From the NCBI GenBank assembly GCA_017557625.1, contig JAFYYG010000016.1:35188-99187 (forward strand): a DNA stretch of 64,000 nucleotides, read 5' to 3'. The position numbers and the translations under genes were made by a program. Each line of letters opens with the position of its first letter. Positions within the stretch are counted from its first letter, which is position 1. Positions 10,271-64,000 of the stretch are shown here, one piece after another. Below the pieces are notes generated by a model, which had not been told where the DNA came from, searched no databases, and saw only the letters and a program-made list of their open reading frames with translations. The DNA is from Muribaculaceae bacterium (lineage in GTDB: Bacteria > Bacteroidota > Bacteroidia > Bacteroidales > Muribaculaceae).

Positions 10271-10298
10271 AAGTTTAGTGTTTAGTGTTTAGGTGTTT
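10271..10298. repeat. Heptanucleotide array (AGTGTTT type)
   Basis: About four tandem 7-nt units (AGTGTTT, AGTGTTT, AGGTGTT) lie immediately upstream of the protease-like start codon. Confidence 0.7.
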
Positions 10299-10360
10299 CA
10301 CACTGTCGTGCTCTTCACTATTCTTGATAACAATGCAAATTCTATGCCAAGGCTTAGGAA

Positions 10361-10434
10361 ACTATGAACTGAGAACTGAGAACTGAAAACTGAGAACTGA
10401 AAACTGAGAACTAAAAACTATGAACTGTGAACTA
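10361..10434. repeat. Heptanucleotide array (GAACTGA type) entering the permease 3' end
   Basis: About ten 7-nt units vary around GAACTGA, AAACTGA and GAACTAA. The array runs into the downstream end of the permease gene, so the last codons and stop of that gene (…IVHSS, TAG) are array sequence. Confidence 0.9.
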
Positions 10435-11656
10435 TTCGCAGCCGTCTACGCATGATGGTGCTAGTGACAAGTGACGTTACAAAACCTATACCAGCAACGA
10501 GCAATAGCACTATGAGCATATCGGTCCAAACCACCTTAACAGGATAAGCGTTGACTATCACCTGAGTGGGATCAGCACCAATCTTAAGCCACCCGAAAGT
10601 TTGCTGACCCAGACACAGCAAGAGACCAATCACTATACCCATTAAAGCTCCGAGCATAGTGATTAGCCACCCTTCGGCTACAAAGATGCGTGATATCTGT
10701 TTACTAGTGGCACCGAGGTTTTGGAAAGTGCGTATGCTCTCGTCCTTCTCAATGATGAGCAGCGACAATGTGCTGATAATGTTGAAAGTGGCGATAATCA
10801 TGATGAACGTGAGCAGCAAAAATGTCACCCATTTCTCCACATTAACCATTCGGAACGACTCCGATTGCTGCATCAGCCGGTTTTTCACCACATAATTTGT
10901 TCCCAGAGCCTGTTCAAGTTGTTTCATCACATCTTTCTCCTTGGCGCCAGGCTTGAGTTTCAGCTCAATTTGGGTAGCCTCAGTGTCATAATCAAACAGT
11001 TCTCGCGCCTTATCAATGGGGATAAAGATAAGGTCTTGATCGTAAGACGCTTGCTGAACTTGGAATATACCCTTCACAAATAGCGAATCGCTGGTGAAGG
11101 CATCTATGGGATTGGCAACGTTGACCTGACCCTCACGGCGGGGTGCATAGAGATGAAGCAAGCGCAGACTGTTGGCTTGAAGACGGAGGCTCACCGCTGG
11201 TCCCACCCCAACTATAGCGTAACTGTTACCAACCTCATCTTCAAGAGCAAACGAGCCATCCACGATGACACTGTCGATAGAATTTATCTCATTATAGTTG
11301 GCAGGAACGCCTTTCAACCGAACTGGCATCTGATAATCGACAAAGATGGCTAGAGCCTGGTCTTCAATTACCGGCATCGCCTTCTCAACACCCGCCACAC
11401 GGCTTATTACGGCAATGACACTGTCGGCGTTGCCAATGGTCTTGCCTACTGCTGGACACACAGCAATCTGAGGGTCGAGTTTTGCCAACTTTCCCTTTAT
11501 CACATCAGAGAAGCCATTAAAGACGCTAAGCACGCACACCAAAGCCGCAGTGGTCACCACCACACCGCATATCGAGATTATGCTGATGATGTTCACCGCG
11601 TTGTGAGCCTTCTTCGACTTCAAATAACGCAACGCTATTTTCAATGACAGAGCCAT
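10418..11656 (-). CDS. FtsX/LolC-LolE-type ABC transporter permease
   Basis: A 412-residue inner-membrane permease. One N-terminal helix (about 20-45; AVNIISIISICGVVVTTAALV) precedes a large periplasmic MacB_PCD-like domain. Three C-terminal helices follow (WVTFLLLTFIMIIATFNIIS, WLITMLGALMGIVIGLL, IVLLLVAGIGFVTSL). The cytoplasmic loop ESIRTFQNLGATSKQISRIF is the typical FtsX-family coupling element. It most resembles LolC/LolE, which release lipoproteins from the inner membrane. The cognate LolD ATPase is not in this window. The last five codons and the stop come from the heptamer array at 10361-10434. Confidence 0.88.
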   Translation of the reverse strand: MALSLKIALRYLKSKKAHNAVNIISIISICGVVVTTAALVCVLSVFNGFSDVIKGKLAKLDPQIAVCPAVGKTIGNADSVIAVISRVAGVEKAMPVIEDQALAIFVDYQMPVRLKGVPANYNEINSIDSVIVDGSFALEDEVGNSYAIVGVGPAVSLRLQANSLRLLHLYAPRREGQVNVANPIDAFTSDSLFVKGIFQVQQASYDQDLIFIPIDKARELFDYDTEATQIELKLKPGAKEKDVMKQLEQALGTNYVVKNRLMQQSESFRMVNVEKWVTFLLLTFIMIIATFNIISTLSLLIIEKDESIRTFQNLGATSKQISRIFVAEGWLITMLGALMGIVIGLLLCLGQQTFGWLKIGADPTQVIVNAYPVKVVWTDMLIVLLLVAGIGFVTSLVTSTIMRRRLRIVHSS

Positions 11657-11657
11657 T

Positions 11658-11746
11658 ATTTTAAGTGTTAAGTGTCAAGTTTTAAGCAGGGACGAGGCCT
11701 GCCTCGTCCGTCAATCTCCAATCCCCGATCCTCGATCCCCGATCTA
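11658..11746. repeat. Heptanucleotide arrays (TTAAGTG type, then GATCCCC type) between rbfA and the permease
   Basis: Positions 11658-11689 hold about four TTAAGTG-like units. Positions 11714-11746 hold about five units of the GATCCCC/GATCCTC family. The second array runs directly into the rbfA stop codon (TAG followed on the minus strand by ATCGGGGATCGAGG). Confidence 0.85.
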
Positions 11747-12079: not shown

Positions 12080-12087
12080 ATTATTTA

Positions 12088-12613: not shown

Positions 12614-12746
12614 AATCGTTAAATTTTAAGTAGTGACTGTTTTTAGACTGCAAAGATAACACCTTTTCCTGAATTGTGTACCAAAATGGCGCACATTCTT
12701 TAGGAAACCTCAAATATTTGGCAAGTAGTAAAAAAATTGAGATATA

Positions 12747-12778
12747 TTTGGTTTTTATTAAAATTTTCTTTTCCTTTG
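12747..12778 (+). promoter_or_regulatory. Promoter of the Cys-motif/carboxypeptidase-regulatory gene
   Basis: TTTG (12747-12750) is separated by exactly 20 nt from TTCCTTTG (12771-12778), one mismatch from TAnnTTTG. The ATG lies 30 nt downstream. Confidence 0.6.
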
Positions 12779-12807
12779 CGAAAATCAACTCCACAAATCA
12801 TTTTATT

Positions 12808-16530: not shown

Positions 16531-16975
16531 AATAGATAATTTTTTAAATGATGAATAAAATATGTGTAAACTCAAATCGTTTTTTTGTTTTGGTTTTTAT
16601 CGCCACTCGCCAACGGTTGGTTTGTGTTGACGATGCAAAATTATAACGGCGGCGACCGGAGGTGTTATAACCGCCAGGACAATTTTTGAAACAACGGGGA
16701 CAATCGCTGTAAAAAATCGGAAAACTTGTGTAACAACGGGGACATCTTTGTCACACAAAACCCTTAAGTACAGCATTTTGCAATTAATCTAAAAACAACC
16801 CGATTCTTCTCTATTTTTTCTTCCAAAAAAGTGATTTTCTCGCCAAAAAAAACCTTTTCTTGACGTTTTTTTGTGATGTTTCTAAGAAAAAACTGACAAC
16901 TGATAACTGATAACTGCCAACATTTTTGTATCTTTGCACTTCAAATGAATAATAACACATAAAAATATCACAAAA
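16531..16975. other. Intergenic region between divergent genes, with one heptamer array
   Basis: I see no gene here. It holds the minus-strand -7 box at 16636-16643, a GGCGG/CCGCC inverted pair within about 16646-16675, and two copies of AACAACGGGGACA (about 16691 and 16732). Positions 16890-16920 are a heptamer array of AACTGAC/AACTGAT units. A plus-strand -7 box TATCTTTG (16929-16936) serves the DUF3467 gene. Confidence 0.6.
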
Positions 16976-17296: not shown

Positions 17297-17299
17297 TTT

Positions 17300-18865: not shown

Positions 18866-18880
18866 GCGCTTCGCGCGTTA

Positions 18881-18998
18881 ATCGTGGATCGAGGATCGGG
18901 AATCGAAGATAGAAGATTGGGAATCGGGAATTGGAAGATGTTCCCCGTACTGCGACTCCGTCGCAGTCCACATAACACTTAAAATTTTACACTTAATG
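18881..18998. repeat. Heptanucleotide arrays (GATCGGG type, then CACTTAA type)
   Basis: Positions 18881-18942 hold about eight degenerate units (GATCGAG, GATCGGG, AATCGAA, AATCGGG). Positions 18973-18998 hold about three CACTTAA/AATTTTA units. The last unit contains the ATG of the glycosyltransferase gene (CTTAATGG). Confidence 0.85.
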
Positions 18999-21596: not shown

Positions 21597-21639
21597 TTTT
21601 CTAAAAGAATAATTTCAATAAATTGTGAACTATATACTG

Positions 21640-22229: not shown

Positions 22230-22441
22230 GTAAGTTTTAAGAGTTAAGTACAAAGTACAAAGGGCCAAGTACAAAGGGCCAAGTACAAAGGACCAAGAGC
22301 CAAGTAACTAAGAACTAAGTACAAAGTACCAAGTATTAAGCATCAAGTGTTAAGAAGCAAGCAACCTTTGTCCTTCCTACCTTGTCCTTCGTCCTTCATA
22401 CTTTGTCCTTCATACTTTGTCCTTCATACTTCATCCTTTAC
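22230..22441. repeat. Large heptanucleotide array with inverted halves between queE and queD
   Basis: About thirty 7-nt units. The left half alternates AAGTACA and AAGGGCC/AAGGACC. The right half alternates CCTTCAT and ACTTTGT, whose complement (ACAAAGT, ATGAAGG) resembles the left half. The two halves could fold into a long imperfect hairpin. The right end supplies the last codons (KDEV) and the stop codon of queD. Confidence 0.92.
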
Positions 22442-22762
22442 ATATGATGCCATATTGTCGCGCGACTCCCAAACGTCGGCGCGGTAGCAGTTGGGCACGG
22501 TCTCCACCACCCAGTGCGCGATATTCTCGGCTGTGGGGTTGAACTTGAGCACCTCGTTGAGGTTCTTATGGTCGATTCGGTCGTGAATGAGCTTCTTGAT
22601 AAACGTGAAGTCGCACACCAAGCCATTGCTGTCAAGCTCCTTAGCCTTGCAATAGACCTTGATGATCCAGTTGTGACCATGCAGGTTCTCGCACTTGCTC
22701 TCATAGTCAAGATAGAGCTGATGGCACGATGAAATCTCTAAAGTTTTTTCTACGTAATACAT
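22424..22762 (-). CDS. queD: 6-carboxy-5,6,7,8-tetrahydropterin synthase
   Basis: A 112-residue member of the 6-pyruvoyl-tetrahydropterin synthase fold that makes 6-carboxytetrahydropterin from dihydroneopterin triphosphate. Zinc-binding His residues lie in SSCHQLYLD and ENLHGHNWIIKVYC; the catalytic Cys lies in YESKCENLHGH. VCDFTFIKKLI and LDHKNLNE-type (IDHKNLNEVL) motifs complete the family pattern. The C-terminal KDEV and stop codon are written in heptamer-array sequence, so the native end was probably changed when the array formed. Confidence 0.93.
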   Translation of the reverse strand: MYYVEKTLEISSCHQLYLDYESKCENLHGHNWIIKVYCKAKELDSNGLVCDFTFIKKLIHDRIDHKNLNEVLKFNPTAENIAHWVVETVPNCYRADVWESRDNMASYVKDEV

Positions 22763-22801
22763 TATTAAGTAATAAGTGTTAAGTTTTAAGTGTTAAGTAG
22801 G
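22763..22801. repeat. Heptanucleotide array (TTAAGTG/TTAAGTT type)
   Basis: About five units (ATTAAGT, AATAAGT, GTTAAGT, TTTAAGT, GTTAAGT) sit directly upstream of the queD start codon. Confidence 0.85.
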
Positions 22802-24160: not shown

Positions 24161-25228
24161 TCACACCTCCTCGCGCAGTAAATAGTTGTTACGCAGAGAT
24201 TCAAATAGATGTGGCGCCGCTTTCAGGGTGGCGGTGTCGTGAAGGGGGTTATAGCTATCCATAATGAGTTGGGGCGTCATATCGTTGGCACCGAGCAGGG
24301 GCTTATCAACCTCAGGCACAGGCAAATTCCAGCCGAAATAGCGGTTTAGTGCCTCTATCACCATCGCTGTGCCACGCATTTTGCCCTGACGGCTGTAGCC
24401 TGCTATATGCGGGGTTGCCACAAAGGCCTTGTCGAGCAGCTCTTGGCTTATCGCTGGCTCGTTTTCCCAACAGTCGAGCGCCACGTCGCCCTGCCAGCGC
24501 AGCAGTGCCTCGTTGTCGCACACCGCCCCCCGGGCTGCGTTGAGAATCAGTTCGCAATGTTTCAAGCCTTGCAGGAAAGCCTTGTCACACAGGTGCCAAG
24601 TGGGATATTTGCCATCCTTGGTTAGCGGTGTGTGAAAGGTGATAATGTCGCACTCATGCTGTAAGCAGTGGAGAGTAGAGAGTTGAGAGTGATTTTCAGT
24701 GGAGGGTGGAGAGTGGAGAGTGGAGAGGTCGTTCCCCGATTCCCGATCCCCGATTCCCGATCCCCGTGCGTAGCACTCTGCGAGAGGTGGATCGTTGAGC
24801 AAGATGCGGTAGCCCAACTGTTGTGCCCAACGCGCCACAATGCTCCCCACATGGCCCACGCCCACCACGCCAAGGGTGATGGGATGTGTCACATGATTAG
24901 CCTGCATCCACTGCAAGATGGTGGCGTGCACCCACTGTGCCACTGCCGGGGCGTTGCAGCCTGGAGCGTTAACCACCGTGATACCGTGACTGTGGCAGTA
25001 ATCTAGGTCGATATGATCGGTGCCGATGGTTGCTGTGCCGATGAATTCCAACTTGCTGCCCTCAAGCAGCGCGCAATCGCAGCGGGTGCGGGTGCGGGTA
25101 AGCAACACATCAGCATCACGCACCACGTCGCTAGTAATCTCATTGCCAGGCACATAAAGCACTTCCTGAGCCACTTGTTCAAGAACACCTTTGAGATAAG
25201 GGATTTTGCTGTCGGCAACAATCTTCAT
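24161..25228 (-). CDS. pdxB: Erythronate-4-phosphate dehydrogenase with a repeat-derived insertion
   Basis: NAD-dependent dehydrogenase of pyridoxal-phosphate synthesis, 355 residues. The NAD-binding loop is GVVGVGHVGSIVARWA (about 119-134). Catalytic residues are in LNAARGAVCDNEAL (Arg), LDCWENEP (Glu) and TPHIAGYSRQGK (His). Between ILLNDPPLAE and CDIITFHTPL a segment of about 33 residues (about 155-187), containing GSGIGDRESG and two LSTLH copies, is translated from a heptamer array (24667-24766). Family members have a shorter loop here. The frame stays open and all active-site residues remain, so the enzyme is probably still functional. Confidence 0.93.
   Translation of the reverse strand: MKIVADSKIPYLKGVLEQVAQEVLYVPGNEITSDVVRDADVLLTRTRTRCDCALLEGSKLEFIGTATIGTDHIDLDYCHSHGITVVNAPGCNAPAVAQWVHATILQWMQANHVTHPITLGVVGVGHVGSIVARWAQQLGYRILLNDPPLAECYARGSGIGDRESGNDLSTLHSPPSTENHSQLSTLHCLQHECDIITFHTPLTKDGKYPTWHLCDKAFLQGLKHCELILNAARGAVCDNEALLRWQGDVALDCWENEPAISQELLDKAFVATPHIAGYSRQGKMRGTAMVIEALNRYFGWNLPVPEVDKPLLGANDMTPQLIMDSYNPLHDTATLKAAPHLFESLRNNYLLREEV
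24667..24766. repeat. Heptanucleotide array inside the pdxB coding sequence
   Basis: Units of GTGGAGA/GTAGAGA/GTTGAGA (24667-24730) join units of GATTCCC/GATCCCC (about 24734-24766). The same two families occur intergenically at 32341-32424 and 33229-33388. It is in frame with pdxB. Confidence 0.92.
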
Positions 25229-27962: not shown

Positions 27963-28333
27963 AATTGTCTCAATATGTTTTAGTTATTCCAGTTAAACTG
28001 GAAGTTTAATGTTTAGAGTTTAGTGTTTAGAAGCATTGACGCCTCCTGTGACGAGGTCGTTTCTCTAACCTCTAACCAATAACCTCTAACCTTCAAATTC
28101 TTAAGTGTTCAGCACTTCAGAATTTGAAATATAGTGCAAAGGTACTCCTTTTTACCGAAATAAACCACCCAATTCACACTAATTTTCAACACCGCTAATT
28201 TTTTCAGACAATTAAATACAATTAAAAACAATTTTTTTCATTAAGGACAATTTACACTGTGCACTAACTAAACGAATTTGAGCGAAACATAAAAGACACA
28301 CAATGCCCACCATACATAATAATCAAACGATTA
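27963..28333. other. Leader of the RlmL-like gene: promoter, hairpins and heptamer arrays
   Basis: No gene is seen. A palindrome TTCCAGTTAAACTGGAA lies at about 27987-28003. Heptamer arrays lie at 28001-28034 (GTTTAGA/GTTTAGT) and 28064-28094 (TAACCTC/TAACCAA). A hairpin pairs about 28093-28108 with 28113-28128 around TTCA with one mismatch. The minus-strand -7 box TACCTTTG is at 28144-28137. Beyond it the sequence is AT-rich up to the island repeats. Confidence 0.65.
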
Positions 28334-28806: not shown

Positions 28807-28833
28807 TGAGCAATAATTACAAATTTGTTTATT

Positions 28834-31800
28834 ATGGAAATTGTACCAGGGGTTTATGAGACTCTTATAAGTCAAGCTATTGAGGAGAAATTGAGAAATT
28901 TCCCAACTGATGAATACTATATTAAAAAGGATAATATTGATAGTGCTGATTCATATATGATGCTTGCAAGTTATTTGTCGGAAGTTGTATCATCAATTTT
29001 AAAAGAATATTTTAGAGAAAAGGACGCCAAACAAACAATATCAAAGCAAGTAGATGTTGTTAATCGTATTTTAAAATTCATTGATGAAGAATGGACGACT
29101 CCTAAAATAAATACTAAACCAGATATTTTAAGTGAAGATTCAAAACTACTATTTCTTAGGGGCATATATAAGAAAATAGGTTACACACAGGAGCAAATTG
29201 AGAAAAAAGCTCAAAACCATCCATTATCAGGTTATAGGGTAAGTAACCTTTTTACTGGAGGTAATGATATTTCACTTGATGATGAGGTTAAAAGAGATAT
29301 CCAAACTTCTGATAACATCGATTTTTTGGTATCTTTTATAAAGTTTGAAGGATTGAGATTAATTATAGATGATTTGGAGAAATTTGTTAAACGGGGAAAT
29401 ACAAAACTTCGTATATTGACTACCACATATATGGGAGCCACTGACCCTAAGGCTGTAAGAAGACTTTTTGAGCTTAGACAATATGGTAATGTTGAAATTC
29501 GAGCATCTTTTAATACTAATCAAGAAAGGCTTCACGCAAAAGCATATATTTTTAATCGTAGAAATAATTTTAATACAGCATATATTGGATCCAGCAATTT
29601 ATCTCGTACCGCTTTGACTAAAGGGCTTGAATGGAATATCAGAGTTACATCAATAGAGAATGCTCATATTATTAATAAAACAAAAGCTTCATTTGATAAT
29701 TATTGGAACAGTGATGATTTTGAAGTAATTGATTCAGAAGAAGCAATAAAAAAATTTGAATCCGCGATAAACAAACAAAGAAATCGTGACTTTATTCATG
29801 ATAATACCCCAGAATACATTGTAAGATTTGAAAGAAAAACTCATCAAATAAAAGTACTAGAAAAACTGCAATATGAACGTGAGATCCTTGGTAATTATAA
29901 AAATTTAATTATAGCAGCAACTGGAACAGGCAAAACAGCCATTTCTGCTTTTGATTTTAAAGACTTTAATAAGGCTATACTCAAAAATGAAAAACGTAAT
30001 GCTAGATTATTATTTGTAGTTCATAGAGAAAAGATATTAAGACAGGCAAGATCTACATTTCGTTCTGTAATGGTAGACCGAAATTTTGGTGAAATATGGA
30101 CCGGAAGAATACAACCCAATAGTGATGGTAATCTAGAACATCTTTTTATTACAATCCAAACGTTAAATAACAACTGGAATGCAATAGAAAGGATGGGAAA
30201 ATCCTATTATGATTATGTTGTTATTGACGAAGTACATCATAGTCAAGCTGGAAGTTATCGTGATATCATTTCTAAATTAACCCCTAAAATTCTAATCGGT
30301 CTCACTGCCACTCCGGAAAGAATGGATGGCAAGGACATAAAACCAGATTTTAATAACCATTTTGCCGCTGAAATACGTTTACAAGAAGCTTTAAATCAAC
30401 AATTATTGTCTCCTTTTGACTATTTTTGTGTGACAGACGATAGTGTAGATTTAAGTAGAATAGCGTGTAATGGTGATGTCTATGACCGAAATGAATTAAG
30501 TTTACTCTATGTTAATAATAGAGAACGTTTTGAACTAATTCAACGTGCATTGGAAAGATATTTAAATAATCCTCAAGATTGCAAAGCTGTTTGTTTTTGC
30601 TGTGGTATTGATCATGCTAATTTTATGGCTGAAATGTTTAATCGTTATGGCTATAAAGCTATATCAGTCACATCAAGAAATAGCAGTGAAATTGATTATT
30701 ATTCAGATCTATTAGCTCAAGGAAGAATCAATTATCTTTGTGTCGCGGACATTCTCAATGAAGGAATAGATATTCCAGAAATTGATACTGTATTATTTTT
30801 AAGACCGACAGAATCCCTTACCATTTTCTTGCAACAGTTGGGGCGAGGTTTGCGATTAGCAGATGGGAAAACATGTCTAACTGTTTTGGATTTTGTCGCT
30901 CAAGCAAATAATAGTTATAATTATGAGAGCCGATTCCGTGCTCTTGTAGGAAGGAGTTCTAGAAGTATATCAGAAGAAATTAAGAATGGCTTTAAATTCT
31001 TACCTCGTGGATGCTCCATCACAATGGAAAAACAGGCTCAAGAATATATACTTACTAATATTAGTAAAACAATTTTTGATCTTCGAAGATTGAAAAGAGA
31101 AGTTCATTCTTTTGTTCAAAATACAGGAAGAGCACTTACATTAGAAAATTTTTTAGACAACTTTAGTATTGATTGGAGACTAATTTATAAAAGTCCTGGT
31201 TCTTGGGCTAGATTAAAACAACAATCAGGTATTGATGTTGAGAATTTTAATGCTGAATCAAAATATATCAAATTACTTGAGGGTGGTTTGGCTCGTTTAT
31301 ATCATACTAATAGCTACAGTTATCTAAGCTATTTAAAAAGTTTATTGCAGAATAACATGAAACAACTTCATAGCGCAACAAAACGACATGAAAAGTTCTT
31401 TGTTTTATTCTACTACACAATTTTCATGGACCAAATAGAAAAATTGAATGAAAAATATTCAAAATCATTCAATAATATAGCAGAAGCTGTTTCTTCTTTG
31501 TTCAACTATAAATGGTTCTTAGAGGAATTTTCTTATCTTATTAATCTTCGTTTATCTCAACTTACTAAAACAACTAAATGGATTCAAATTGATAATGAAT
31601 CTGAAATCGAACTTTATGGTTGTTACTCTGCAGATGAAGCACATCTTTTATTAGAAAACAAACTTGGTAGATGGCAAGTGTTTGGCACACAATATAATTA
31701 TGACCGCAAAATTTCCATGGTATTTGTGACGTTAAACAAATCTGACAAAGATTATTCTCCTTCAACATTATATGAAGATTACGCTATATCTGCCAATCAA

Positions 31801-32058
31801 TTTCATTGGCAATCTATGAATAAAGTACGAATTAACAGTGAAGAAGGTCAAAGAATTATTCAACAAAATAGTAATGAATGGAAATTTATACTTTTTGTGC
31901 GCGACTCAAAAACTGATGAATTCGGAAATACTAATGGTTACTATTGTTTAGGACTAATAGACTATAACTCAAGCTATGGAGAATGCCCAATTAATGTTGT
32001 ATGGGATATGCAAAATCCAATTCCTGGATTTATGTTAGAAGAAGCAAAAGCAATATAA
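28834..32058 (+). CDS. PLD-nuclease / superfamily 2 helicase fusion (DUF3427-type), probable defence protein
   Basis: A 1074-residue protein using the ATG at 28834. Domains in order: an N-terminal region of unknown fold (1-155); a phospholipase-D-like nuclease (about 160-275) with the HxK half-motif HAKAYIF (H234, K236) and YIGSSNLSRTAL; an SF2 helicase core with Walker A ATGTGKT (362-368), DEVH (465-468), GLTATPERMDG and QQLGRGLRLADG; and a C-terminal DUF3427-like part. Relatives are DNA translocases in restriction-like defence loci. The gene is strikingly AT-rich compared with thyA next door and is bracketed by inverted repeats, both signs of transfer. No methylase or partner gene accompanies it, so target choice is unknown. 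Confidence 0.88.
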   Translation: MEIVPGVYETLISQAIEEKLRNFPTDEYYIKKDNIDSADSYMMLASYLSEVVSSILKEYFREKDAKQTISKQVDVVNRILKFIDEEWTTPKINTKPDILSEDSKLLFLRGIYKKIGYTQEQIEKKAQNHPLSGYRVSNLFTGGNDISLDDEVKRDIQTSDNIDFLVSFIKFEGLRLIIDDLEKFVKRGNTKLRILTTTYMGATDPKAVRRLFELRQYGNVEIRASFNTNQERLHAKAYIFNRRNNFNTAYIGSSNLSRTALTKGLEWNIRVTSIENAHIINKTKASFDNYWNSDDFEVIDSEEAIKKFESAINKQRNRDFIHDNTPEYIVRFERKTHQIKVLEKLQYEREILGNYKNLIIAATGTGKTAISAFDFKDFNKAILKNEKRNARLLFVVHREKILRQARSTFRSVMVDRNFGEIWTGRIQPNSDGNLEHLFITIQTLNNNWNAIERMGKSYYDYVVIDEVHHSQAGSYRDIISKLTPKILIGLTATPERMDGKDIKPDFNNHFAAEIRLQEALNQQLLSPFDYFCVTDDSVDLSRIACNGDVYDRNELSLLYVNNRERFELIQRALERYLNNPQDCKAVCFCCGIDHANFMAEMFNRYGYKAISVTSRNSSEIDYYSDLLAQGRINYLCVADILNEGIDIPEIDTVLFLRPTESLTIFLQQLGRGLRLADGKTCLTVLDFVAQANNSYNYESRFRALVGRSSRSISEEIKNGFKFLPRGCSITMEKQAQEYILTNISKTIFDLRRLKREVHSFVQNTGRALTLENFLDNFSIDWRLIYKSPGSWARLKQQSGIDVENFNAESKYIKLLEGGLARLYHTNSYSYLSYLKSLLQNNMKQLHSATKRHEKFFVLFYYTIFMDQIEKLNEKYSKSFNNIAEAVSSLFNYKWFLEEFSYLINLRLSQLTKTTKWIQIDNESEIELYGCYSADEAHLLLENKLGRWQVFGTQYNYDRKISMVFVTLNKSDKDYSPSTLYEDYAISANQFHWQSMNKVRINSEEGQRIIQQNSNEWKFILFVRDSKTDEFGNTNGYYCLGLIDYNSSYGECPINVVWDMQNPIPGFMLEEAKAI

Positions 32059-32340: not shown

Positions 32341-32430
32341 TTGAGAGGGGAGAGGGATGAGGTGAGAGAACTCCGATTCACGATCCCCGATTCCCGAACT
32401 TCGATAAACGAAAAACGAAACAATGAAACA
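32341..32430. repeat. Heptanucleotide array running into the thyA start
   Basis: GGGAGAG/GGTGAGA units, then GATCCCC/GATTCCC units, then AACGAAA/CGATAAA units. The ATG of thyA lies in the last part (ACGAAACAATGAAAC). Confidence 0.85.
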
Positions 32431-33217
32431 ATATCTCGACTTATTGCAGCATGTGCTTGACAACGGCACTATCAAGCACGACCGCACTGGCACTGGCACC
32501 AAGAGCATCTTTGGGTATCAGCTGCGGTGCGACTTGAGCAAGGGGTTCCCGCTGCTCACCACCAAGAAGGTGCATCTCAAGTCTATAATCTACGAACTGC
32601 TGTGGTTCCTCAAGGGCGACACCAACGTGCGCTACCTGCAGGAGCACGGGGTGCGCATCTGGAACGAATGGGCCGACGAAAACGGCGACTTGGGACCAGT
32701 CTATGGCGGTCAGTGGCGTTCTTGGCCCGACTACAACGGCGGCCACATCGACCAAATCTCGCAGATAATCGACCAGATAAAGAACACGCCCGACTCGCGC
32801 CGCATCATAGTTAGCGCGTGGAACGTAGCCGACGTGCCCACGATGAAGCTGCCTCCGTGCCACACGCTGTTCCAGTTCTATGTCGCCAACGGCAAGCTGA
32901 GTCTGCAGCTCTACCAGCGCAGCGCCGACCTATTCCTGGGCGTGCCGTTCAACATTGCCAGCTATGCGCTGCTGTGCATGATGGTGGCGCACGTCACAGG
33001 TCTTGAGCCGGGCGAGTTTGTCCACACCTTTGGCGACGCGCACATCTACCTCAACCACATGGACCAGGTGCATGAGCAGCTCAGCCGCGAGCCACGCCCC
33101 CTGCCCCGCATGATCCTCAACCCCGAGGTGAAGAGCATCTTCGACTACCAGTACGACGACTTCCAGCTCGAAGGCTACGACCCCTGGCCACTAATCAAGG
33201 GAGTGGTCTCTGTGTAG
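32423..33217 (+). CDS. thyA: Thymidylate synthase
   Basis: A 264-residue ThyA that makes dTMP from dUMP with methylene-tetrahydrofolate. The catalytic Cys is in [14 protein letters not shown] (about 146). Phosphate-binding Arg residues lie in [12 protein letters not shown] and [11 protein letters not shown], and [20 protein letters not shown] is the dUMP/folate signature (read in parts). Length equals E. coli ThyA. It is followed by folA, which recycles the dihydrofolate it makes, and the two are probably co-transcribed. The 5' leader is mostly heptamer array. Confidence 0.97.
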
Positions 33218-33228: not shown

Positions 33229-33388
33229 CGGGGATCGGGGATCGGGGATCGGAGATCGAGAATCGGGGAACGGGGATTGAGAATCGAGGATCGGAAATCG
33301 AGGATCGAATCCTCTCTACTCTCCACTCTGCACTCTATACTCTCCCCTCTCAACTGACAACTGACAACTGATAACTATGAACTATTCT
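33229..33388. repeat. Composite heptanucleotide array between thyA and folA
   Basis: About 22 units in nearly continuous 7-nt phase pass through three families: GATCGGG/GATCGAG (33229-33307), CTCTACT/CTCCACT (about 33310-33348) and AACTGAC/AACTGAT (about 33350-33380). The folA ATG falls inside the last family (GATAACTATGAACTATT). Confidence 0.95.
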
Positions 33389-33883
33389 GCAATCGTAGCA
33401 ATCGACCGTAATGGGGCGATTGGCAAGGAGGGGCAACTGCTGTGCCACCTGCCTGCCGACATGAAGCATTTTAAGGAAACCACCATGGGGCATTCCATCG
33501 TGATGGGGCGCAAGACATTTGAGTCGTTCCCAAAGGGCGCACTGCCTGGGCGGCAGAATATTGTAATCACCCGCAACCGCGACTATGCCGCCGAGGGTGT
33601 GACCGTAGCCCACAGCGTTGACGAGGCATTAGAGGCAGCCACTATGCCCGGCGAGGTGTTCATAATCGGCGGCGAGGAAATCTACCGTGCCACCTTCGAG
33701 AGGGTCAATACCATCCACCTCACCGTCATTGACCACAAATTCCGCGATGCCGACGCCCACTTCCCCCGTATCGACATGCGCTCCTGGAAAATCATCAGTG
33801 AGGAGCCCCACCCCGCCGCCGACCGCAATCCCTATCCTTACACCTTCATGACTCTGCAACGCAAGAAGTCTAATGGGCGTTAG
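33377..33883 (+). CDS. folA: Dihydrofolate reductase
   Basis: A 168-residue DHFR. Recognisable blocks are AIVAIDRNGAIGKEG, HLPADMKHFKETTMG, VMGRKTFESFP and EVFIIGGEEIY. The substrate-carboxylate Asp27-equivalent is in LPADM. The residue that is almost always Trp before HLPAD (Trp22 in E. coli) is Cys23 here (codon TGC, 33443-33445). The gene follows thyA, and its start codon lies in a heptamer array, without a visible promoter of its own. Function is secure from family, but the Cys may alter folate or inhibitor binding. Confidence 0.94.
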   Translation: MNYSAIVAIDRNGAIGKEGQLLCHLPADMKHFKETTMGHSIVMGRKTFESFPKGALPGRQNIVITRNRDYAAEGVTVAHSVDEALEAATMPGEVFIIGGEEIYRATFERVNTIHLTVIDHKFRDADAHFPRIDMRSWKIISEEPHPAADRNPYPYTFMTLQRKKSNGR

Positions 33884-36404: not shown

Positions 36405-36442
36405 ATATGAACTATAAACTATGAACTGAAAACTGACAACTA
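36405..36442. repeat. Heptanucleotide array (GAACTAT/GAACTGA type) between PorZ-like copies 1 and 2
   Basis: About five units (GAACTAT, AAACTAT, GAACTGA, AAACTGA, CAACTAT) end directly at the stop codon of the upstream PorZ-like gene. Confidence 0.85.
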
Positions 36443-42900: not shown

Positions 42901-42935
42901 AGAGTGGAGTGCCAATAATCTCAATATTGTCTTCC

Positions 42936-42968
42936 ATAAACGATAAACGAACAACGATAAACGAAATC
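42936..42968. repeat. Heptanucleotide array (AAACGAT/AAACGAA) before the dehydrogenase start
   Basis: Four units (AAACGAT, AAACGAA, CAACGAT, AAACGAA) end three nucleotides before the ATG at 42969. The same unit family precedes thyA. Confidence 0.85.
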
Positions 42969-55934: not shown

Positions 55935-56081
55935 AATATTATTTTTTGTGTTAATAGTTCGTTAAGAAAAATTGCGCAAAAGTACTACTATATTTTCTTT
56001 CGGCAAGCGATAAAAGAGAAAAAATCATGCCAACAGCGGCCTATGGCAGTTAAAAAATGTGAATGGGCACCTGTTGGCGCG

Positions 56082-56254
56082 GGGAACGTGAATCGGGGAT
56101 GGGGGATGGGGGATAGGGGATGGGAGATGGGGGATAGAGGATGGGGATAGAGGATGGGGATAGAGGATGGGGATAGATAATTCCCGACCTTCGACCTTCG
56201 ACCTCCGATCAACGATCTTCGATCCCCGATCTTCGATCCCCGATCTCCGAACCT
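56082..56254. repeat. Heptanucleotide array downstream of the PorW-like gene
   Basis: Left part: GGATGGG, GGATAGG, GGATAGA units with some 6-nt steps (56082-56176). Right part: TTCGACC, TTCGATC, CCCGATC units in steady 7-nt phase (about 56186-56254). The two parts are partly complementary and could pair. No gene is seen between 55985 and 56267. Confidence 0.9.
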
Positions 56255-56267: not shown

Positions 56268-59200
56268 CTACTTATTCTTCCCGGCTTCTTTGCGCTCGCG
56301 TTCTCGTTGCTTGCGCTGCTCTTCGCGCTCTTTCTGCCGTTTCTTGGCTTCTTCTTTTTTGCGCTTTTGCTCCTCTTTCTTGCGTTTTTGCTCTTCTTTC
56401 TTCTTTTTCTCGCGCTCCTTTTGACGCTCTTTGCGCTCTTTCTCCTTTTGCTTGCGAGCTTCCTCTTTGGCTTTCTGCTTGTCTTTGCGTTCTTTCTCGG
56501 CAAGCTTCTTAGCGTCTTCTTTCTCGCGTTCTTTCTGCTTCTGGAGTTCCTCACGCTCTTTCTCGGCGGCCTTTATCGAGTCTTCCTTAGCCTTCTCGGC
56601 GGCACGCTGTTCCTTCTCGCGTTCTTTCTGCTCGCGTTCGAGCTGTTTCTGGCGCTCCTTCTCCTCACGTTCGAGCTGCTTCTGACGCTCCTTTTCGGCC
56701 TTCTTAGCCTCTTTTTCGTTGCGCTTGTTGTCCTTATTATCTTTGTCTGTAGTGTCTTTATCGTTCTTGCCTTGCTTCTCGGCCTCTTGCTGCTTCTTAG
56801 CCTCGTCTTCGGCACGCAGACGCTCTGCCTCGCGCTCACGCTCTTGCTGACGCTTGAGTTCCTCCTCGCGCTTCTTGGCCTCCTCGGCTTTGCGCTTCTC
56901 CTCCTCCTTGCGCTGTTCCTCGAGCTGACGCTGCTCGGCGCGGCGGCGTGCCTCCTCGAGCAATGCAGGGTTGCCTTGCTGCTCAGGAGTATCTACCTTA
57001 GGTTTCTCCTCCTTCTTCTCATCGGCCTTTTCTTTCTTCTCGTCCTTCTTCTTAACGTCTTTTTCGTCTTTCTTCTCATCGGCCTTGCCTTGACCCTTCT
57101 TCACCGACTTAGTGGGCTTATCCTCGTCGGTTTCTTCTCCGCCGCTATCGTCTTCGGCACCATCGTCCTTCTTCTCGTCATCGACGGCGTCGTCAGGAAT
57201 CTGCTCTTCCACCTTCTCCTCATTTAGCTCATCGAGATATCGGAAGTATTCCTCAAATGTGCGTCCCTCTTTTAGCAGCAGGTTGAAGTTCTCGTCGCTG
57301 ATGATGACATAGTGCGCCTGAGCGGGCACCACTTTCTCCTCGTCTTTCTCCCACTTGTCGCGGTAGATTTCCACCTCACGATAGTTGGGGAATCCTTTCA
57401 CCACTATCAGACCTAAGTTTCCAAACGTCATCTGCTCCAAGTCGAAGTCGCGCATCAGGAACGAGTTGAAGTTATGTTTTGCCACCTCATAGAGCAACTG
57501 GTTGGGCGACACAGAGTCGGTAGAGAACACCAGCACAAAGAGCTGAGGCTTGTTCTTGCCTTCCTTGAACGGTGTGAACTCCTTGCCCTCGCCAGTGGCG
57601 GTGGTGTCGTTCGACAGTCGCATCGACCACAGCATGCCACGAGTGTTGGATGAGCCGCCGTTGATCTTGCGACCCTGGTTGAGCTGCTTGACAAATGCCG
57701 AAGCGGTAGGTGTGATGTCGGTCTCGGGATAACGCTCAAGCATCTCCTTGATGGTGCTCTTGAATTTCTCGGAGTTGCCCTCGGTGACATAGGCCAACGC
57801 GTCGATAAACATGAACTTAGGCATGATTTTCGAGAGCGGATAGGTCTTCATCATCTCCACATAGGCAGCATGCACAGTGGCGTTGTCGTTGTTGAGATAG
57901 GCAGTATAGGCCTGATCGTAAAGCTCTTCCTGAACCAGATTCATGCGCTTGAGGTTCTCGAGATAGTTGGGATCTTGCATTGCCTGGCCATACTTAGAGT
58001 CGGCGAATTCGTCCAAAATCTTCTGCCGGTAGCGTTCGGCATCGGTGAATTCCCCGCTCCGGTAGTAGAGCAGGTACATATTATAATATGTGTCGAGCCG
58101 GTAGGTGTTGTCGGGATATCGCTCCATCAGTTCCTCAAATTCATAGATTGCCGCTGGCAGGTCGGCAAGTTTGTCCTTGAGGATGACACCCATGTTGTAG
58201 AGGCCTTCCTGAATCACGTCGTTGGAGTTCTGTATCTCCTCCTCGGTCTTTGGTATCTGCTTGAGGTAGTATTCCTCGTAGTGCGGGTCTTCGGCACGTT
58301 TAAGGGCCTCTTTGTCAACCTGCGTGGAGTCGTTACCCTGCACCTGCGTGGAGTCATTCATGGCGAGGTTCTCTTCTTCCTCCTCATTATTCTCATCAAG
58401 CGAGAAGGTGTTCTTGTTTCGCCGTCGCCAGTTATCCTCAAGCTTGCGGTTTCCCCACTGTTGCTGGAACGCCGTCTTGCCGGAGTTTTTTGTCATCGTG
58501 TTATAGAAATACCACGAATTGTCGCTGTTGATATTATAGGTAGCGGGTTGCTGGGCATTACCCTTCAAACCACTATTGCCTTGCTGCTGGGCGAGGTAGG
58601 CCTCGCGATCTGCATTTTCTTTTTCTTCCTTCTCTTTCTTCTTAAGGTCTTCGATGATTTTGGCAATCACCTTCTTCTGCTCATCAAGCGGCATCTGCGA
58701 GAGCCTTAGCAGTGAGTCTTGCAGTGTGACGTTGCCCGAATACACCGCAAGCTCATCAAGCACATCGCTGCGCTGCTTGAGTTCCTTGTAGTTGGGATAG
58801 TTCTCGCTCAGCTGCGGAATCGCCTCGCTGTAGCATGGCTGCGCCTTGTCGTACTTGTGCTGGGCAAAGTAGATGCCACCCAGCGTGAGCTGGCTGATGG
58901 CCTTGTCGATGCCGTTGCGTGTACTCTTCTTTGCGGCAAGCTCATAGTTCTCTACGGCATGCACTGTGTCACCACGAGAGAGGTAGAGGTTGCCGATGGC
59001 GTAGTAAATCTGGTCGAGATATTCCTTGTTGCGGTCGTAGCGCGTCATGCGCTTGAGGGCTTTCACCTCGCTCTCAATGTTGCTGCCCTGGAACACGGCG
59101 CTCTGCTTGATGCGCGCGTTGAACTTGGTGCGGTAAGACGAGGAACTGCTGCTGCCCGCCTTCTTATAGGCTTGATAGGCTTTCTCCTTTTGGCCAGTCT

Positions 59201-59978
59201 CGTCATAGAGCTGACCCAGAAGGAAATAGAGTCTCACCTTCTGTCCTCCGCTGGCGCCTTTCACGGCTTTTTCCATATAGGGCACCGCCTCGGCGTTCAT
59301 CTGACTCTTGATGTAGAAGTCGGCATAGGCGAGGTTAGCAAGCTGGCTTAACCGATTGTCCTCAATGCGCTCGGGGTGGATGTGGACAAGAATGTTGTCG
59401 GCCTCGGTGGTCCAGTCCATAGCGCAGTAGCTAAGGGCCTCCCAAATCTGAGCCTCAAGCACAAGGTCGGGTTTCCACTGGAAGTGGCGCGCGATGTAGT
59501 GGAACGTCGCCGCCGAACTCAGGAAGTCGCCCTTCATGTACTGGGCCTTAGCCATCAGGTACCACGCATTGTGGATAAAGGGGTTATACTCCTCGCGCTT
59601 GAGCCATTCCTTGTATTTCGGGTCGCTGCCCTTGCCGGCTTTGCGGTTGGGCTTCTTCTTGATGGAATGCAGCGAGATGGCCTTCTGCATCTTCTCGATG
59701 GTGCGGTCAAAGTTGGTGGTGGGCTGAGTGGCCTTGGGGTTGTTATAGGCCTCGGCGGGGTGGATAAACAGCTGGGTGGAGTAGTCATCCTGGTACTCGT
59801 TCTCGAGTTTCTTGATTTGCTCCTGATAGTGCTTCTCACCGTTGTAATACACGTTATAGCGAGTGTTCATGGCATGCCAAAAGCGGCTGCCGGCAGTGTT
59901 CTTCTTGGTGCTGCACGCCGAGATGATCACTGTCGCAAGGATTAAGATGACGGGTATGTATCGATACAATTTCTTCAT
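56268..59978 (-). CDS. PorW/SprE-like T9SS lipoprotein with tetratricopeptide repeats and a long Lys/Glu-rich tail
   Basis: A 1236-residue lipoprotein (lipobox VIISACSTK). Residues about 25-900 form a TPR-type superhelix. The start GSRFWHAMNTRYNVYYNGEK is the hallmark of PorW (P. gingivalis) and SprE (F. johnsoniae), periplasmic lipoproteins that link the T9SS core ring to the motor or attachment parts. From about residue 925 to the end the sequence is charged coiled coil (EEARRRAEQRQLEEQRKEEE, KEKERKERQKEREKKKKEEQ) with little else. This tail of about 310 residues is not part of PorW/SprE proteins I know. It could span the periplasm or interact with peptidoglycan. Three PorZ-like genes elsewhere in the window support an active T9SS. 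Confidence 0.82.
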   Translation of the reverse strand: MKKLYRYIPVILILATVIISACSTKKNTAGSRFWHAMNTRYNVYYNGEKHYQEQIKKLENEYQDDYSTQLFIHPAEAYNNPKATQPTTNFDRTIEKMQKAISLHSIKKKPNRKAGKGSDPKYKEWLKREEYNPFIHNAWYLMAKAQYMKGDFLSSAATFHYIARHFQWKPDLVLEAQIWEALSYCAMDWTTEADNILVHIHPERIEDNRLSQLANLAYADFYIKSQMNAEAVPYMEKAVKGASGGQKVRLYFLLGQLYDETGQKEKAYQAYKKAGSSSSSSYRTKFNARIKQSAVFQGSNIESEVKALKRMTRYDRNKEYLDQIYYAIGNLYLSRGDTVHAVENYELAAKKSTRNGIDKAISQLTLGGIYFAQHKYDKAQPCYSEAIPQLSENYPNYKELKQRSDVLDELAVYSGNVTLQDSLLRLSQMPLDEQKKVIAKIIEDLKKKEKEEKENADREAYLAQQQGNSGLKGNAQQPATYNINSDNSWYFYNTMTKNSGKTAFQQQWGNRKLEDNWRRRNKNTFSLDENNEEEEENLAMNDSTQVQGNDSTQVDKEALKRAEDPHYEEYYLKQIPKTEEEIQNSNDVIQEGLYNMGVILKDKLADLPAAIYEFEELMERYPDNTYRLDTYYNMYLLYYRSGEFTDAERYRQKILDEFADSKYGQAMQDPNYLENLKRMNLVQEELYDQAYTAYLNNDNATVHAAYVEMMKTYPLSKIMPKFMFIDALAYVTEGNSEKFKSTIKEMLERYPETDITPTASAFVKQLNQGRKINGGSSNTRGMLWSMRLSNDTTATGEGKEFTPFKEGKNKPQLFVLVFSTDSVSPNQLLYEVAKHNFNSFLMRDFDLEQMTFGNLGLIVVKGFPNYREVEIYRDKWEKDEEKVVPAQAHYVIISDENFNLLLKEGRTFEEYFRYLDELNEEKVEEQIPDDAVDDEKKDDGAEDDSGGEETDEDKPTKSVKKGQGKADEKKDEKDVKKKDEKKEKADEKKEEKPKVDTPEQQGNPALLEEARRRAEQRQLEEQRKEEEKRKAEEAKKREEELKRQQEREREAERLRAEDEAKKQQEAEKQGKNDKDTTDKDNKDNKRNEKEAKKAEKERQKQLEREEKERQKQLEREQKEREKEQRAAEKAKEDSIKAAEKEREELQKQKEREKEDAKKLAEKERKDKQKAKEEARKQKEKERKERQKEREKKKKEEQKRKKEEQKRKKEEAKKRQKEREEQRKQRERERKEAGKNK

Positions 59979-60047
59979 TACCCAGCTATATCTTGCCTGA
60001 TATATCTTCTATTAAAACGAAGGAAGGGCGGTTTTATTGCATCTTTC

Positions 60048-60156
60048 GTGGAAGGTGGAACGAGGAAAGTGGAAAGAAGACCACACACCTCAATTGCTCG
60101 AATCCCCTTCTCCCTTCCACTTTCCACCTTCCACCTCCCACCTCCCACCTTCCACC
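60048..60156. repeat. Heptanucleotide arrays (GTGGAAG and TTCCACC types, inverted)
   Basis: About four GTGGAAG/GTGGAAA units (60048-60078) and about seven TTCCACC/TCCCACC units (60110-60156) are inverted relative to each other. They lie between the PorW-like start and the terminator of the surface protein gene. No gene is seen here. Confidence 0.9.
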
Positions 60157-60158
60157 AA

Positions 60159-60192
60159 AAAAAATGCACCCGCAGGCGCGGATGCATTTTTT
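60159..60192 (-). terminator. Rho-independent terminator of the surface adhesin gene
   Basis: A 15-bp stem with one mismatch (60159-60173 with 60178-60192; core ATGCACCCGC) and loop AGGC is flanked by A and T runs, giving a U-tract in the minus direction. Confidence 0.88.
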
Positions 60193-60213
60193 AATTTATC
60201 AACTTAAGGTAGA

Positions 60214-63200: not shown

Positions 63201-63630
63201 CACCAATGAGCAGATTGCCGCCCTCGTAGGTGTAGTAATTGTTGAATTCCAGGGCAATTTGTCCCGAAGTGCCATCAAGTGCTCCTTCCCAAACAACGGT
63301 AGCACCATCCAAGCCAGTGAAGGCATCGATAGTGGTTGCGCTAATCTCCTTGATGAAGATTTGGAAATTGCCACCCCAAGCGGCAGAGGGAACGGTGCTC
63401 AGATACCATGTAAGACCAGTGAGAGTTGACCCAGCAGGCAGGCTTTCAAGTTCATCGGCATTCATGACGAACTCACACTTGTTGTAAGCATCGGCCCATG
63501 TGCCATACACAGGCACATAGCTGTTGGTGTTAGTACCGTCATAAACCGTGATTGTCTGTGTCTCTTGTGCGAAAGCTGCTGTGAAAGCCGCCATCACAAA
63601 GAGCAATAAAGATAATAATTTTTTGTTCAT
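60214..63630 (-). CDS. Surface-exposed fibronectin-III / cleaved-adhesin protein secreted by T9SS
   Basis: I take the start as MNKKLLSLLLFVMAAFTAAF (63630), a signal peptide, giving 1138 residues. The N-terminal third carries FN3-like domains (LQVSNITTNGADVSWEPGG; TALAASNVVYNGATLTWTPG). Two tandem modules follow, each an FN3 unit (ITTKSAVATWAG; ITENSAVATWKG) plus a cleaved-adhesin/MAM-like jelly roll (LTPDNWLISPQVDL, YRIYVSTTGTDV, GYIAFRHYNCSG; and LTPDQWLISPQIED, YRIYVSTTDTDI, GYIAFRHYNCTD). The C-terminus (YNLNGQKLNGKPTAPGIYI) is a type IX sorting tail. It probably binds glycans or proteins outside the cell. A -7 box TAACTTTG is at 63708-63701. Confidence 0.87.
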   Translation of the reverse strand: MNKKLLSLLLFVMAAFTAAFAQETQTITVYDGTNTNSYVPVYGTWADAYNKCEFVMNADELESLPAGSTLTGLTWYLSTVPSAAWGGNFQIFIKEISATTIDAFTGLDGATVVWEGALDGTSGQIALEFNNYYTYEGGNLLIGVYQTQKGTYKTSGFYGVGVEGASVSGYSSSSLDAISANQRNFVPKTTFTYTPGSGAVYYKPQNLQVSNITTNGADVSWEPGGEETIWNLEYKKTTDEEWTEEHGLTTPSYTFDALDNGYAYDVRVQADYGEGQSGWVTTSFATLACEEDDMGEITYVLTDSYGDGWNGNKLQVVVHNSGALVEELTIPSGGNLLEGTIALCYGVEYDLVWVAGSYGYETGFTVTAPDGTVIYDYQGNGSSSNPSPTAGTLTTFTISQVSCPRPTALAASNVVYNGATLTWTPGDEEQDAWQVIYAEGTPAADAINMVPVDVTGEATYNITGLTENTTYTAYVRGNCGENDKSIWSDAVTFTTPLQFVVPTELAIDDITTKSAVATWAGDAESYNLRYRKAAGKELFYSIDLEDGAPGWAISDEDGDGDNWQLVDLSSSSSLSAHSGNIAFYSRSWTSSANLTPDNWLISPQVDLKGTLKYYVAGDGSWPETYRIYVSTTGTDVADFEPLTDDMTTPSTSMVYDEKTFDLSAYEGVKGYIAFRHYNCSGQDFMLIDDISIEGDDIAAGEWTVISPATSPQDIEGLAASTEYEVQVQGVYADGTSEWTESVLFTTLSASAMPTDLAVSEITENSAVATWKGVQDKYNVRYRKAATRDELFFEGFENGLDAWTLVNTDGDSYNWQIVDPENVFSNSSLPRYEGTYCVMSRSYAGTALTPDQWLISPQIEDLGGTLRYYVMDDGADYPETYRIYVSTTDTDINSFEPVTDDMQTPNTGVWTEVAVDLSAYEGQSGYIAFRHYNCTDMDFMFIDAIGIYANEVPAGEWTTVENVEALTYTMEGLDAATDYEVEVQGIYEDAKATTDWTAPVKFTTLEAQEPEPVITLDVEFGTYAEAQTVHVTVENMPEGGSIKYELIPTNTKEAWQDYDEATGIVVEESAALTVAVFDAEGEELARVEGEYTIDPTTGISIVGVDSNNNEWYNLNGQKLNGKPTAPGIYINGNRKVVIK

Positions 63631-63700
63631 AGAAAAACGGTTTTGGTTAATAATATAGAAAATAAACTCTAATAAATTTATGCTAAAAACATTCAAAGTG

Positions 63701-63708
63701 CAAAGTTA
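63701..63708 (-). promoter_or_regulatory. -7 element of the surface adhesin gene
   Basis: On the minus strand TAACTTTG matches TAnnTTTG; it lies about 70 nt before the ATG at 63630. Confidence 0.6.
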
Positions 63709-63764
63709 GCAATTAATGATTAAAATCACAAATTCAATGCTAAAATATTCAATGTTTTGTTGAA

Positions 63765-64000
63765 GGTTATTGGATTTATTGGATTTGGGTTATTGGTTAT
63801 CGGTTATTGGATTTGGGTTATGGGTTATTGGTTATCGGTTATTGGAGAACCCCGGTCCCCGATCCCCGTTCCTCGATCCTCGATCCCCGATCCCCGGTCC
63901 CCGATCCTCGACCCCCGATCCCCGGTCCCCGATCCTCGATCCCCGATCCCCGATCCCCGATCCTCGATCCCCGATCCCCGATCCTCGACCCCCGATCCCC
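63765..64000. repeat. Long heptanucleotide array running off the window end
   Basis: From 63765 to about 63845 the units are TTGGTTA, TCGGTTA, TTGGATT and TGGGTTA. From about 63848 to the edge they are GATCCCC, GATCCTC, GGTCCCC and GACCCCC, about 21 units. The two families join without a spacer. No gene is seen in 63709-64000. Confidence 0.95.

Follow-up and report, generated by a model that had tools for sequence, protein, structure and literature searches.

The intergenic regions of a Muribaculaceae bacterium carry a dispersed population of short tandem arrays built on a 7-nt step. We analyzed a 64,000-nt stretch of its metagenome-assembled genome (MAG), called the window here, which covers positions 35188-99187 of contig C75 (99,187 bases) and ends where the contig ends; the genome itself (G000) comprises 3.05 Mb in 76 contigs and is 88% complete. 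The arrays are a real, ordered, fast-evolving and rich variant of a phenomenon that is known in kind, since TAACTGA and GGGNATC arrays have been published, genomes with several families and variation between relatives included. We lean toward reading them as intergenic heptanucleotide satellites with fast turnover, produced by 7-nt expansion, block copying and selection acting together.

Within the window, 18 segments spanning 1107 bases reach a local score of at least 14 at lag 7, our threshold for a segment at any given lag (some counts below use a lower one). Lag 14 gives 14 segments, lags 12 and 13 give one each, and lags 4, 5, 6, 8, 9, 10, 11 and 15 give none; composition-preserving local shuffles yield no segments at any lag except lag 8 (0.4). 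Positions of high self-similarity number 186 at lag 7, 203, 109 and 151 at lags 14, 21 and 28, and 26, 2 and 13 at lags 13, 20 and 26, with none at lags 2-6 and 8-12 and about zero in shuffles, so that lag 7 is the sole strong short period. All six loci that a preliminary description of this DNA had offered as examples of 7-nt tandem arrays were recovered to about 10 nt by Tandem Repeats Finder (TRF) or lag-7 scans (10360-10433; 18876-18934; 22231-22354 and 22384-22438; 33229-33308 and 33312-33385; 56080-56142 and 56185-56250; 63765-63845, from TRF, and 63850-64000). At positions 56097-56177, however, a step of 13 nt fits better than one of 7 nt (89% and 78% matches, respectively). Here a GGATGGGGATAGA array with a 13-nt step lies inside the 7-nt array.

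The signal extends well beyond the window. Samples of G000 hold 74 lag-7 segments in 461 kb, or 85 at the lower threshold, dispersed over many loci and mainly non-coding. Its other samples contain 56 in 397 kb, those of the related genome G042 contain 44 in 400 kb, and those of G060, a single-contig genome of the same genus, contain none in 420 kb. Across samples of 25 genomes, lag 7 gives 244 segments, compared to 49, 33, 12, 11, 5 and 0 at lags 9, 8, 10, 6, 11 and 5. This is the sharp excess for which an autocorrelation check had been proposed, and it gives the arrays the above-chance 7-nt step of heptanucleotide tandem repeats such as short tandemly repeated repetitive (STRR) sequences and long simple sequence repeats. 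A TCTAGA type of array with a spacing of about 8-11 nt also occurs in gaps of G042, at L101 and other loci, and could account for some of that genome's signal at lags 8-10. All array counts rest on MAG stretches, with the contigs of G000 and G042 partly picked for holding arrays, and genes were called with a simple purpose-built hexamer model. Contig C74 of G000 starts with a CCCCGAT unit (C74:3-17), the same unit as in the array at which C75 ends; arrays therefore probably break the assembly, making MAG counts low estimates.

Unit sequences do vary by locus, as first described, and fall into several families, but they are not free to vary. With 11 reference heptamers that we picked after inspecting the arrays, 222 of 269 arrays lie within one mismatch of a reference unit (29% for shuffled units), and G000 alone holds 10 of the 11, which account for 75 of its 85 arrays. 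AACTGAN arrays have five positions conserved at 0.91-0.97 and two that are freer (0.60 and 0.43). Three consecutive AACTGAN units match 21 times in G000 and are present in 36 of 76 genus genomes, placing the published TAACTGA unit in this genus; in the phylum they occur in 43 of 395 genomes (reversed control in 14, counted as rows), and AATGCAN triplets occur in 4 of 395 (reversed control in 1). TTAAGTG triplets with up to three mismatches were found in 62 of 101 genus genomes, and their reversed control, abundant in many, reads as a real family (AATTCAC) and so is no neutral control. Abundance is specific to the genome, with CCCCGAT pairs (at most one mismatch) numbering 52 in G000, 103 in G042, 85 in G049 and 0-5 in the other 70 genus genomes. 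Families can also adjoin closely: CTCTCCA and AACTGAC units share a single lag-7 segment between thyA and folA, at 33312-33385.

Called genes contain 409 of 4070 array bases, compared to a coding fraction of 0.82 of the sequence, and 120 of 200 family-assigned arrays, all found in gaps, are no more than 10 nt away from a gene edge. The original placement of the arrays at gene boundaries thus describes them well in general, but not the composite at 24667-24766, which sits within the reading frame of pdxB. The best NCBIfam match of this gene is PRK00257 at 353 bits, under its cut-off of 434. G140 carries a different two-family array at the same variable loop of its pdxB, and the loops of G042, G133 and G053 are shorter, with no lag-7 segment there. 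Another in-frame composite lies in mutS2 of G000. MutS2 is reported to restrain recombination, so a link between this array and the spread of arrays is conceivable. A seventh in-gene segment (G140, L099 418-450) falls at the end of its stretch, in a gene call that is doubtful.

The arrays are also oriented. We counted polarity only for arrays that differ by at most one mismatch from one of ten reference units (nine families) and that lie inside gaps left by the gene model; p-values for these counts are too small, because related genomes share arrays. Up to 50 nt from a gene edge, 144 of 163 arrays follow a mirror-symmetric rule, with a fixed direction from the edge into the gap. The rule holds for 67 of 68 arrays at starts and 77 of 95 at stops, and for 3 of 8 beyond 100 nt; by genome, it holds for 41 of 42 in G042, 13 of 13 in G049, 46 of 52 in G000 and 6 of 13 in G140. 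AACTGA arrays run forward in 22 of 22 cases on the start side, with 8 forward and 6 reverse on the stop side. In the GGGNATC family the G-rich strand is antisense upstream of open reading frames (ORFs) in 3 of 3 cases and sense past stops in 10 of 12. The expected sign for AATGCAN was fixed after seeing the counts. GC skew alone, which divides start-side arrays 62 to 6 and stop-side arrays 68 to 48, was rejected as the polarity rule: AATGCAN is skewed the other way, and the polarity of individual families was masked as a result. The start-side rule had first emerged from a skew count made earlier in G000 and G042, and seven named loci (13089-22385 bases) showed none (p = 1).

To follow single gaps through the genus, we used the one between thyA and folA as a reference. 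From the best matches among 101 genus genomes 20 stretches were fetched, of which one lacked the genes, leaving 19 chosen relatives. At a low threshold, 13 of the 19 have lag-7 segments in this gap and 6 have none, and its size ranges from 37 to 344 nt, with one of 1113 nt. The units, which include GAATGCG, AACTCAC, AACGATAAACGAAT and AATGCAC, often vary by species; G001 and G049 have CTCTCC or AACTGA units in common with the window, and in G140 and G011 GTTTATC arrays face GATAAAC arrays. In G001 and G133 (L102, L103) the same gap is taken up by a long structured element (TTGCCGCGCAAGCGCGGAAATTAGAGAGCC...), and a similar one occupies the G001 gap orthologous to window positions 59979-60213. 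Over 1248 orthologous gap pairs, both directions counted, an array recurs in 227 of 423 cases given an array and in 188 of 825 given none. Where both gaps are arrayed, 56 of 180 pairs have a unit family in common (0.31; a gap drawn at random from that genome gives 0.24). The site therefore tends to recur while its sequence changes. Array presence and absence vary between species; variation between strains had been predicted for an active process. The opposite prospect raised at the outset, that array sequences conserved across distant species serve as ordinary functional leaders, can largely be dismissed within the genus.

Some blocks have been copied between gaps of one genome, most clearly in G042 and G049. 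A core, AATCTCAWCACTGYCTTCCATAAAC, scored with ATAAAC at up to three mismatches, occurs 44 times in G042, 46 times in G049 and 1-6 times in seven others, making 9 of 101 genus genomes (reversed control, 0). Many of the G042 gaps that we printed contain TTAAGTG units, a palindrome resembling repetitive extragenic palindromic (REP) sequences, the core AATCTCATCACTGTCTTCC and ATAAACN units, in that order; G049 gaps have CAGTTAT units in first place. Composites with the palindrome and core occur in both orientations in these two genomes. Sequence outside the arrays matches another gap in 25 of 36 arrayed compared to 76 of 192 arrayless gaps in G042, and in 8 of 12 compared to 6 of 26 in G049. At two neighboring gaps, G000, G042, G140 and G133 all have TTAAG-type units on the start side, followed by a module that differs by species and, within each of G042, G140 and G133, is shared by both gaps. 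Single cases are found in G000, with 42 and 35 identical nt spanning non-repeat junctions at unrelated gaps; the 42 nt link the region of 42926-42965 to L016 near 16586 (minus strand). GTAG-headed palindromes flanking or near a REP-associated tyrosine transposase (RAYT) gene are the mark of REP/RAYT systems. We found GTAGGGACAAGGCGTGCCTTGTC modules in G042, and the one Y1_Tnp gene that we read is not flanked by them.

Repeats of this kind have precedents. The STRR sequences of cyanobacteria are heptanucleotide repeats, and they and long simple sequence repeats resemble the present arrays in step and dispersal, as far as the available accounts go, but belong to other lineages. Both Paludibacter and Porphyromonas gingivalis are members of the Bacteroidales. 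The first description knew of nothing similar in that order, which was wrong: TAACTGA arrays are documented in five Bacteroidetes, one of them Paludibacter, as well as in Beggiatoaceae, Thiocystis and 15 cyanobacteria (MacGregor 2015, PMC4679880). In that account they are mainly intergenic, with some inside ORFs, and the same gap in relatives can lack them; in BOGUAY and Flexibacter they run forward immediately before start codons, and in Microcystis, Gramella, Aequorivita and Elizabethkingia other heptamers are mixed in with them (PMC4679880). Our arrays are alike in unit, step, mainly intergenic position, forward direction at starts, mixing of heptamers, variation between relatives and occasional occurrence in ORFs. 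They differ in that related heptamers are rare as repeats in BOGUAY, whereas one genome here holds 10 of the 11 reference units, and the consulted text of that account gives neither a common polarity rule nor arrays in the middle of conserved enzymes, both of which are present here (PMC4679880). In Xanthomonas and Nostoc, GGGAATC/GGGGAYT repeats have the G-rich strand antisense upstream of ORFs or sense past stops, and lie between the same genes in relatives with variable length and sequence (Rehm 2015, PMC4692102). The CCCCGAT/GATCGGG family follows the same strand rule; the consulted part of that account describes one family with a preference for four units, compared to many families here (PMC4692102). 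Heptanucleotides are the commonest class of such repeats, and a polymerase step has been suggested to explain them (Mrazek 2007, as cited in PMC4679880 and PMC4692102). The BrickBuilt miniature inverted-repeat transposable element (MITE) of P. gingivalis is intergenic and dispersed and contains a minisatellite with a 23-nt unit, with leader and tail subunits (Klein 2015, PMC4596501); it shares with our arrays an intergenic tandem repeat in a dispersed element, but they step by 7 nt, fall into many families and lack defined ends. A 2025 survey, in the part consulted, gives Bacteroidota a high density of short repeats and finds certain prokaryotic phyla enriched in units of 6-9 nt (PMC12699852). 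Our search of the open-access literature found no report of such arrays in Muribaculaceae or Bacteroides. Apparently new are the single polarity rule across families, the replacement of unit families at orthologous gaps and the in-frame arrays in pdxB and mutS2.

The satellite reading that we favor would work as follows. Short lag-7 seeds at gene edges would grow and shrink in 7-nt steps, most simply because the replicative polymerase undergoes slipped-strand mispairing. With a unit family in place in a genome, blocks of array, in some cases together with adjoining non-repeat sequence, would be copied to other gaps in either orientation, whether through ectopic recombination, template switching or REP-like mobility. 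Selection would decide which arrays survive: judging from position and polarity, they would mostly be kept out of coding sequence, would present the G-poor strand as the leader upstream of starts, and would be retained in frame at protein positions that tolerate insertions and deletions (indels). Turnover would outpace speciation, which would explain why the same gap often has other units in other species. The original proposal, that one slippage process with sequence free to vary made all arrays, is not supported, given the limited set of units, the fixed polarity of most families and the presence of some arrays in copied blocks.

Several results weigh against the satellite reading. Array-free leaders also lean toward C over G (537 compared to 324, with 110 ties), if less than start-side arrays do. 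Polarity at stops is not explained by slippage alone, and it is missing for AACTGA at stops (6 of 14) and overall in G140 (6 of 13). Sharing of unit families, tested with 143 of 198 arrays from four genomes with at least 8 arrays each, is only slightly higher within genomes (0.131) than between them (0.096), and 45 of 1000 permutations were as high. Family order inside composites is no more concordant than chance, at 8-15 pairs a genome. Outside the arrays, matches to another gap show no excess in G000 (13 of 52 arrayed, 48 of 193 arrayless), G140 (0 of 11, 5 of 26) or several other sampled genomes, and block copying inside the arrays of G000 is marginal. Finally, strict alignments of 19 arrayed and 25 array-free pairs (a first, too permissive set was not used) place 7 of 38 indels in array context in multiples of 7, compared to 11 of 85 elsewhere, no clear enrichment among genomes that are far apart. 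In favor of the reading, the two length differences in the best-aligned pair of arrays, from G042 and G140 (95% identity, picked out after the fact), are 35 and 14 nt, each divisible by 7.

Other explanations overlap with this one and with each other, so our estimates for them are not exclusive. We see a modest chance of something bolder, a self-propagating, genome-wide heptamer system in which arrays act as landing pads for copying gap contents between genes, with mirror polarity at both gap edges and each species rewriting its intergenic regions with its own 7-nt mix. It is slightly less likely that slippage alone suffices, each array arising independently at its own gap from a polymerase with a preferred 7-nt slip, the unit set reflecting mutational preference and nothing passing from gap to gap. 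The sharp step fits this, as does the seed-like AACTATATACTG of G000 at window positions 21597-21639, where G140 (L140) has a long AACTGTG-type array; shared blocks inside G000 arrays are not in excess at k = 18-24, and the same units recur in other phyla, as far as the partly consulted accounts show. Local slippage does not account for identical non-repeat junctions and modules at unrelated gaps, for CCCCGAT abundance in three genomes or for polarity. Less probable again is that miniature mobile elements of MITE or REP type, moved in trans, carry the arrays as their ends or as passengers, the mirror polarity of the arrays being that of terminal inverted repeats. That polarity, the tens of core copies in G042 and G049 in palindrome composites of both orientations, the facing arrays of G140 and G011, and the BrickBuilt precedent (PMC4596501, consulted in part) speak for it. 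By eye, no clean empty site with a target duplication was seen in the pairs printed, no systematic search having been made, and the arrayed gaps of G000 share no more outside sequence than other gaps. Nor do facing arrays behave as matched hairpin arms, being no more complementary within a gap than between gaps: inverted similarity averages 7.2 within gaps and 6.4 for same-genome swaps (p = 0.76; 81 of 91 pairs, the rest in genomes with too few pairs), though some gaps score very high. The Y1_Tnp family, the only transposase family searched for, is found in 92 of 101 genomes, G060 included, and the sole such gene read (L115 2241-2579) adjoins no arrays.

We consider it quite improbable that the arrays are functional regulatory sites, kept by selection because they work as leaders or terminators; one candidate user is an OB-fold RNA-binding protein (S1, Csp), as proposed by MacGregor. 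The start-side polarity and the uneven conservation within AACTGAN units are in keeping with such a role, and in a sample of 35 composite, 45 single-array and 45 array-free gaps folding is slightly stronger in composite than in array-free gaps (p = 0.034). However, single-array gaps fold like array-free ones (p = 0.42), orthologous genes with near-identical proteins carry no array or quite different units, and arrays lie within pdxB and mutS2. We give almost no credence to the idea that a reverse transcriptase or special polymerase writes the arrays from a heptamer template. Such synthesis would suit a fixed period and a unit set that is limited and varies in abundance between genomes, but units within arrays vary at several positions, and no candidate was found among DinB-type polymerases, the class that was searched. 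These (PF00817) occur in 96 of 101 genomes, with a second copy in G060 that is absent from array-rich G000 and G140. As trans-acting candidates, neither Y1_Tnp nor DinB-type proteins separate array-rich genomes from G060.

Table 1. Arrays and associated genes of the window, with the mutS2 locus elsewhere in the genome (+, plus strand; -, minus strand;., facing arrays)
Feature	Position	Strand	Basis
GTTTAGT array on + strand (CTAAAC family), left side of gap before gene 10418-11656	10273-10298	-	TRF 10273-10298; lag-7 segment 10273-10292
AACTGAR array, right side of same gap, entering 3' end of minus-strand gene 10418-11656 (MacB/FtsX type)	10360-10433	+	lag-7 score 42.8; Pfam
ATCCCCG array	11712-11744	+	lag-7 scan
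AACTGAY array, 54 nt upstream of called start of + gene	16891-16921	+	lag-7 scan
GATCGGG-type array (CCCCGAT family), 10 nt past stop of cysteinyl-tRNA synthetase gene	18876-18934	-	lag-7 scan; gene assignment
TTAAG/AAGTACA/AAGGGCC array on start side of a minus-strand gene; G042, G140 and G133 have TTAAGTG units in the orthologous gaps, then differing sequence	22231-22354	-	lag-7 scan; ortholog comparison
CCTTCGT/CCTTCAT array, opposite side of gap holding 22231-22354	22384-22438	+	TRF; lag-7 scan
TTAAGTG array, also in G042, G140 and G133, there followed by species-specific modules	22751-22798	-	lag-7 scan; ortholog comparison
Composite GGGGATC + CTCTCCA (sense order) in pdxB (24161-25228), in frame, residues 154-187	24667-24766	-	lag-7 scan; protein comparison
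GTTTAGT (28004-28030) and CTCTAAC (28063-28092) facing arrays	28004-28092	.	TRF; lag-7 scan
Short CGATTCC/CGATAAA array, ends 2 nt before thyA	32374-32420	+	lag-7 scan
thyA, thymidylate synthase, flank of reference gap	32423-33217	+	PF00303 E 2.9e-127; NF002497 481 bits, cut-off 327
GGGGATC array, 11 nt past thyA stop	33229-33308	-	lag-7 scan
CTCTCCA array passing into AACTGAY units across folA start codon	33312-33385	+	lag-7 scan
folA, dihydrofolate reductase, flank of reference gap	33377-33883	+	PF00186 E 3.2e-58
AACTATR/AACTGAM array	36406-36441	+	lag-7 scan
TTGTCTTCC core then ATAAACG units, ends 4 nt before + gene	42926-42965	+	scan; same-genome copy
GGGGATR array	56080-56142	-	lag-7 scan
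CGATCTY/CGATCCC array, 17 nt from stop of minus-strand gene 56268-59978	56185-56250	+	lag-7 scan
GTGGAAR (60048-60076) and CCTTCCA (60105-60156) facing arrays	60048-60156	.	TRF; lag-7 scan
GGTTATY array (TRF from 63765)	63781-63845	-	TRF; lag-7 scan
CCCCGAT array, at least 21 units, truncated by end of contig C75	63850-64000	+	TRF; lag-7 scan
mutS2 with in-frame GGGAATC/CTCTCCC composite array between ATPase and C-terminal SH3-like domain	L016 2917-5418 (G000)		TIGR01069 810 bits, cut-off 400

In addition to the listed features, the window holds a 1077-aa open frame at 28825-32058 that the coding model did not call and that is perhaps of foreign composition.

Reports of heptanucleotide arrays have so far come from a scatter of bacteria, with no mechanism proven. 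Any mechanism has to satisfy the polarity rule seen at both gene ends, and the pdxB and mutS2 arrays show a route for such repeats to become protein sequence. Because a single genus contains array-rich species, array-poor species and a single-contig genome with no arrays in its sample, seeding, 7-nt growth, gap-to-gap copying and selection can be separated here by comparing orthologous gaps.

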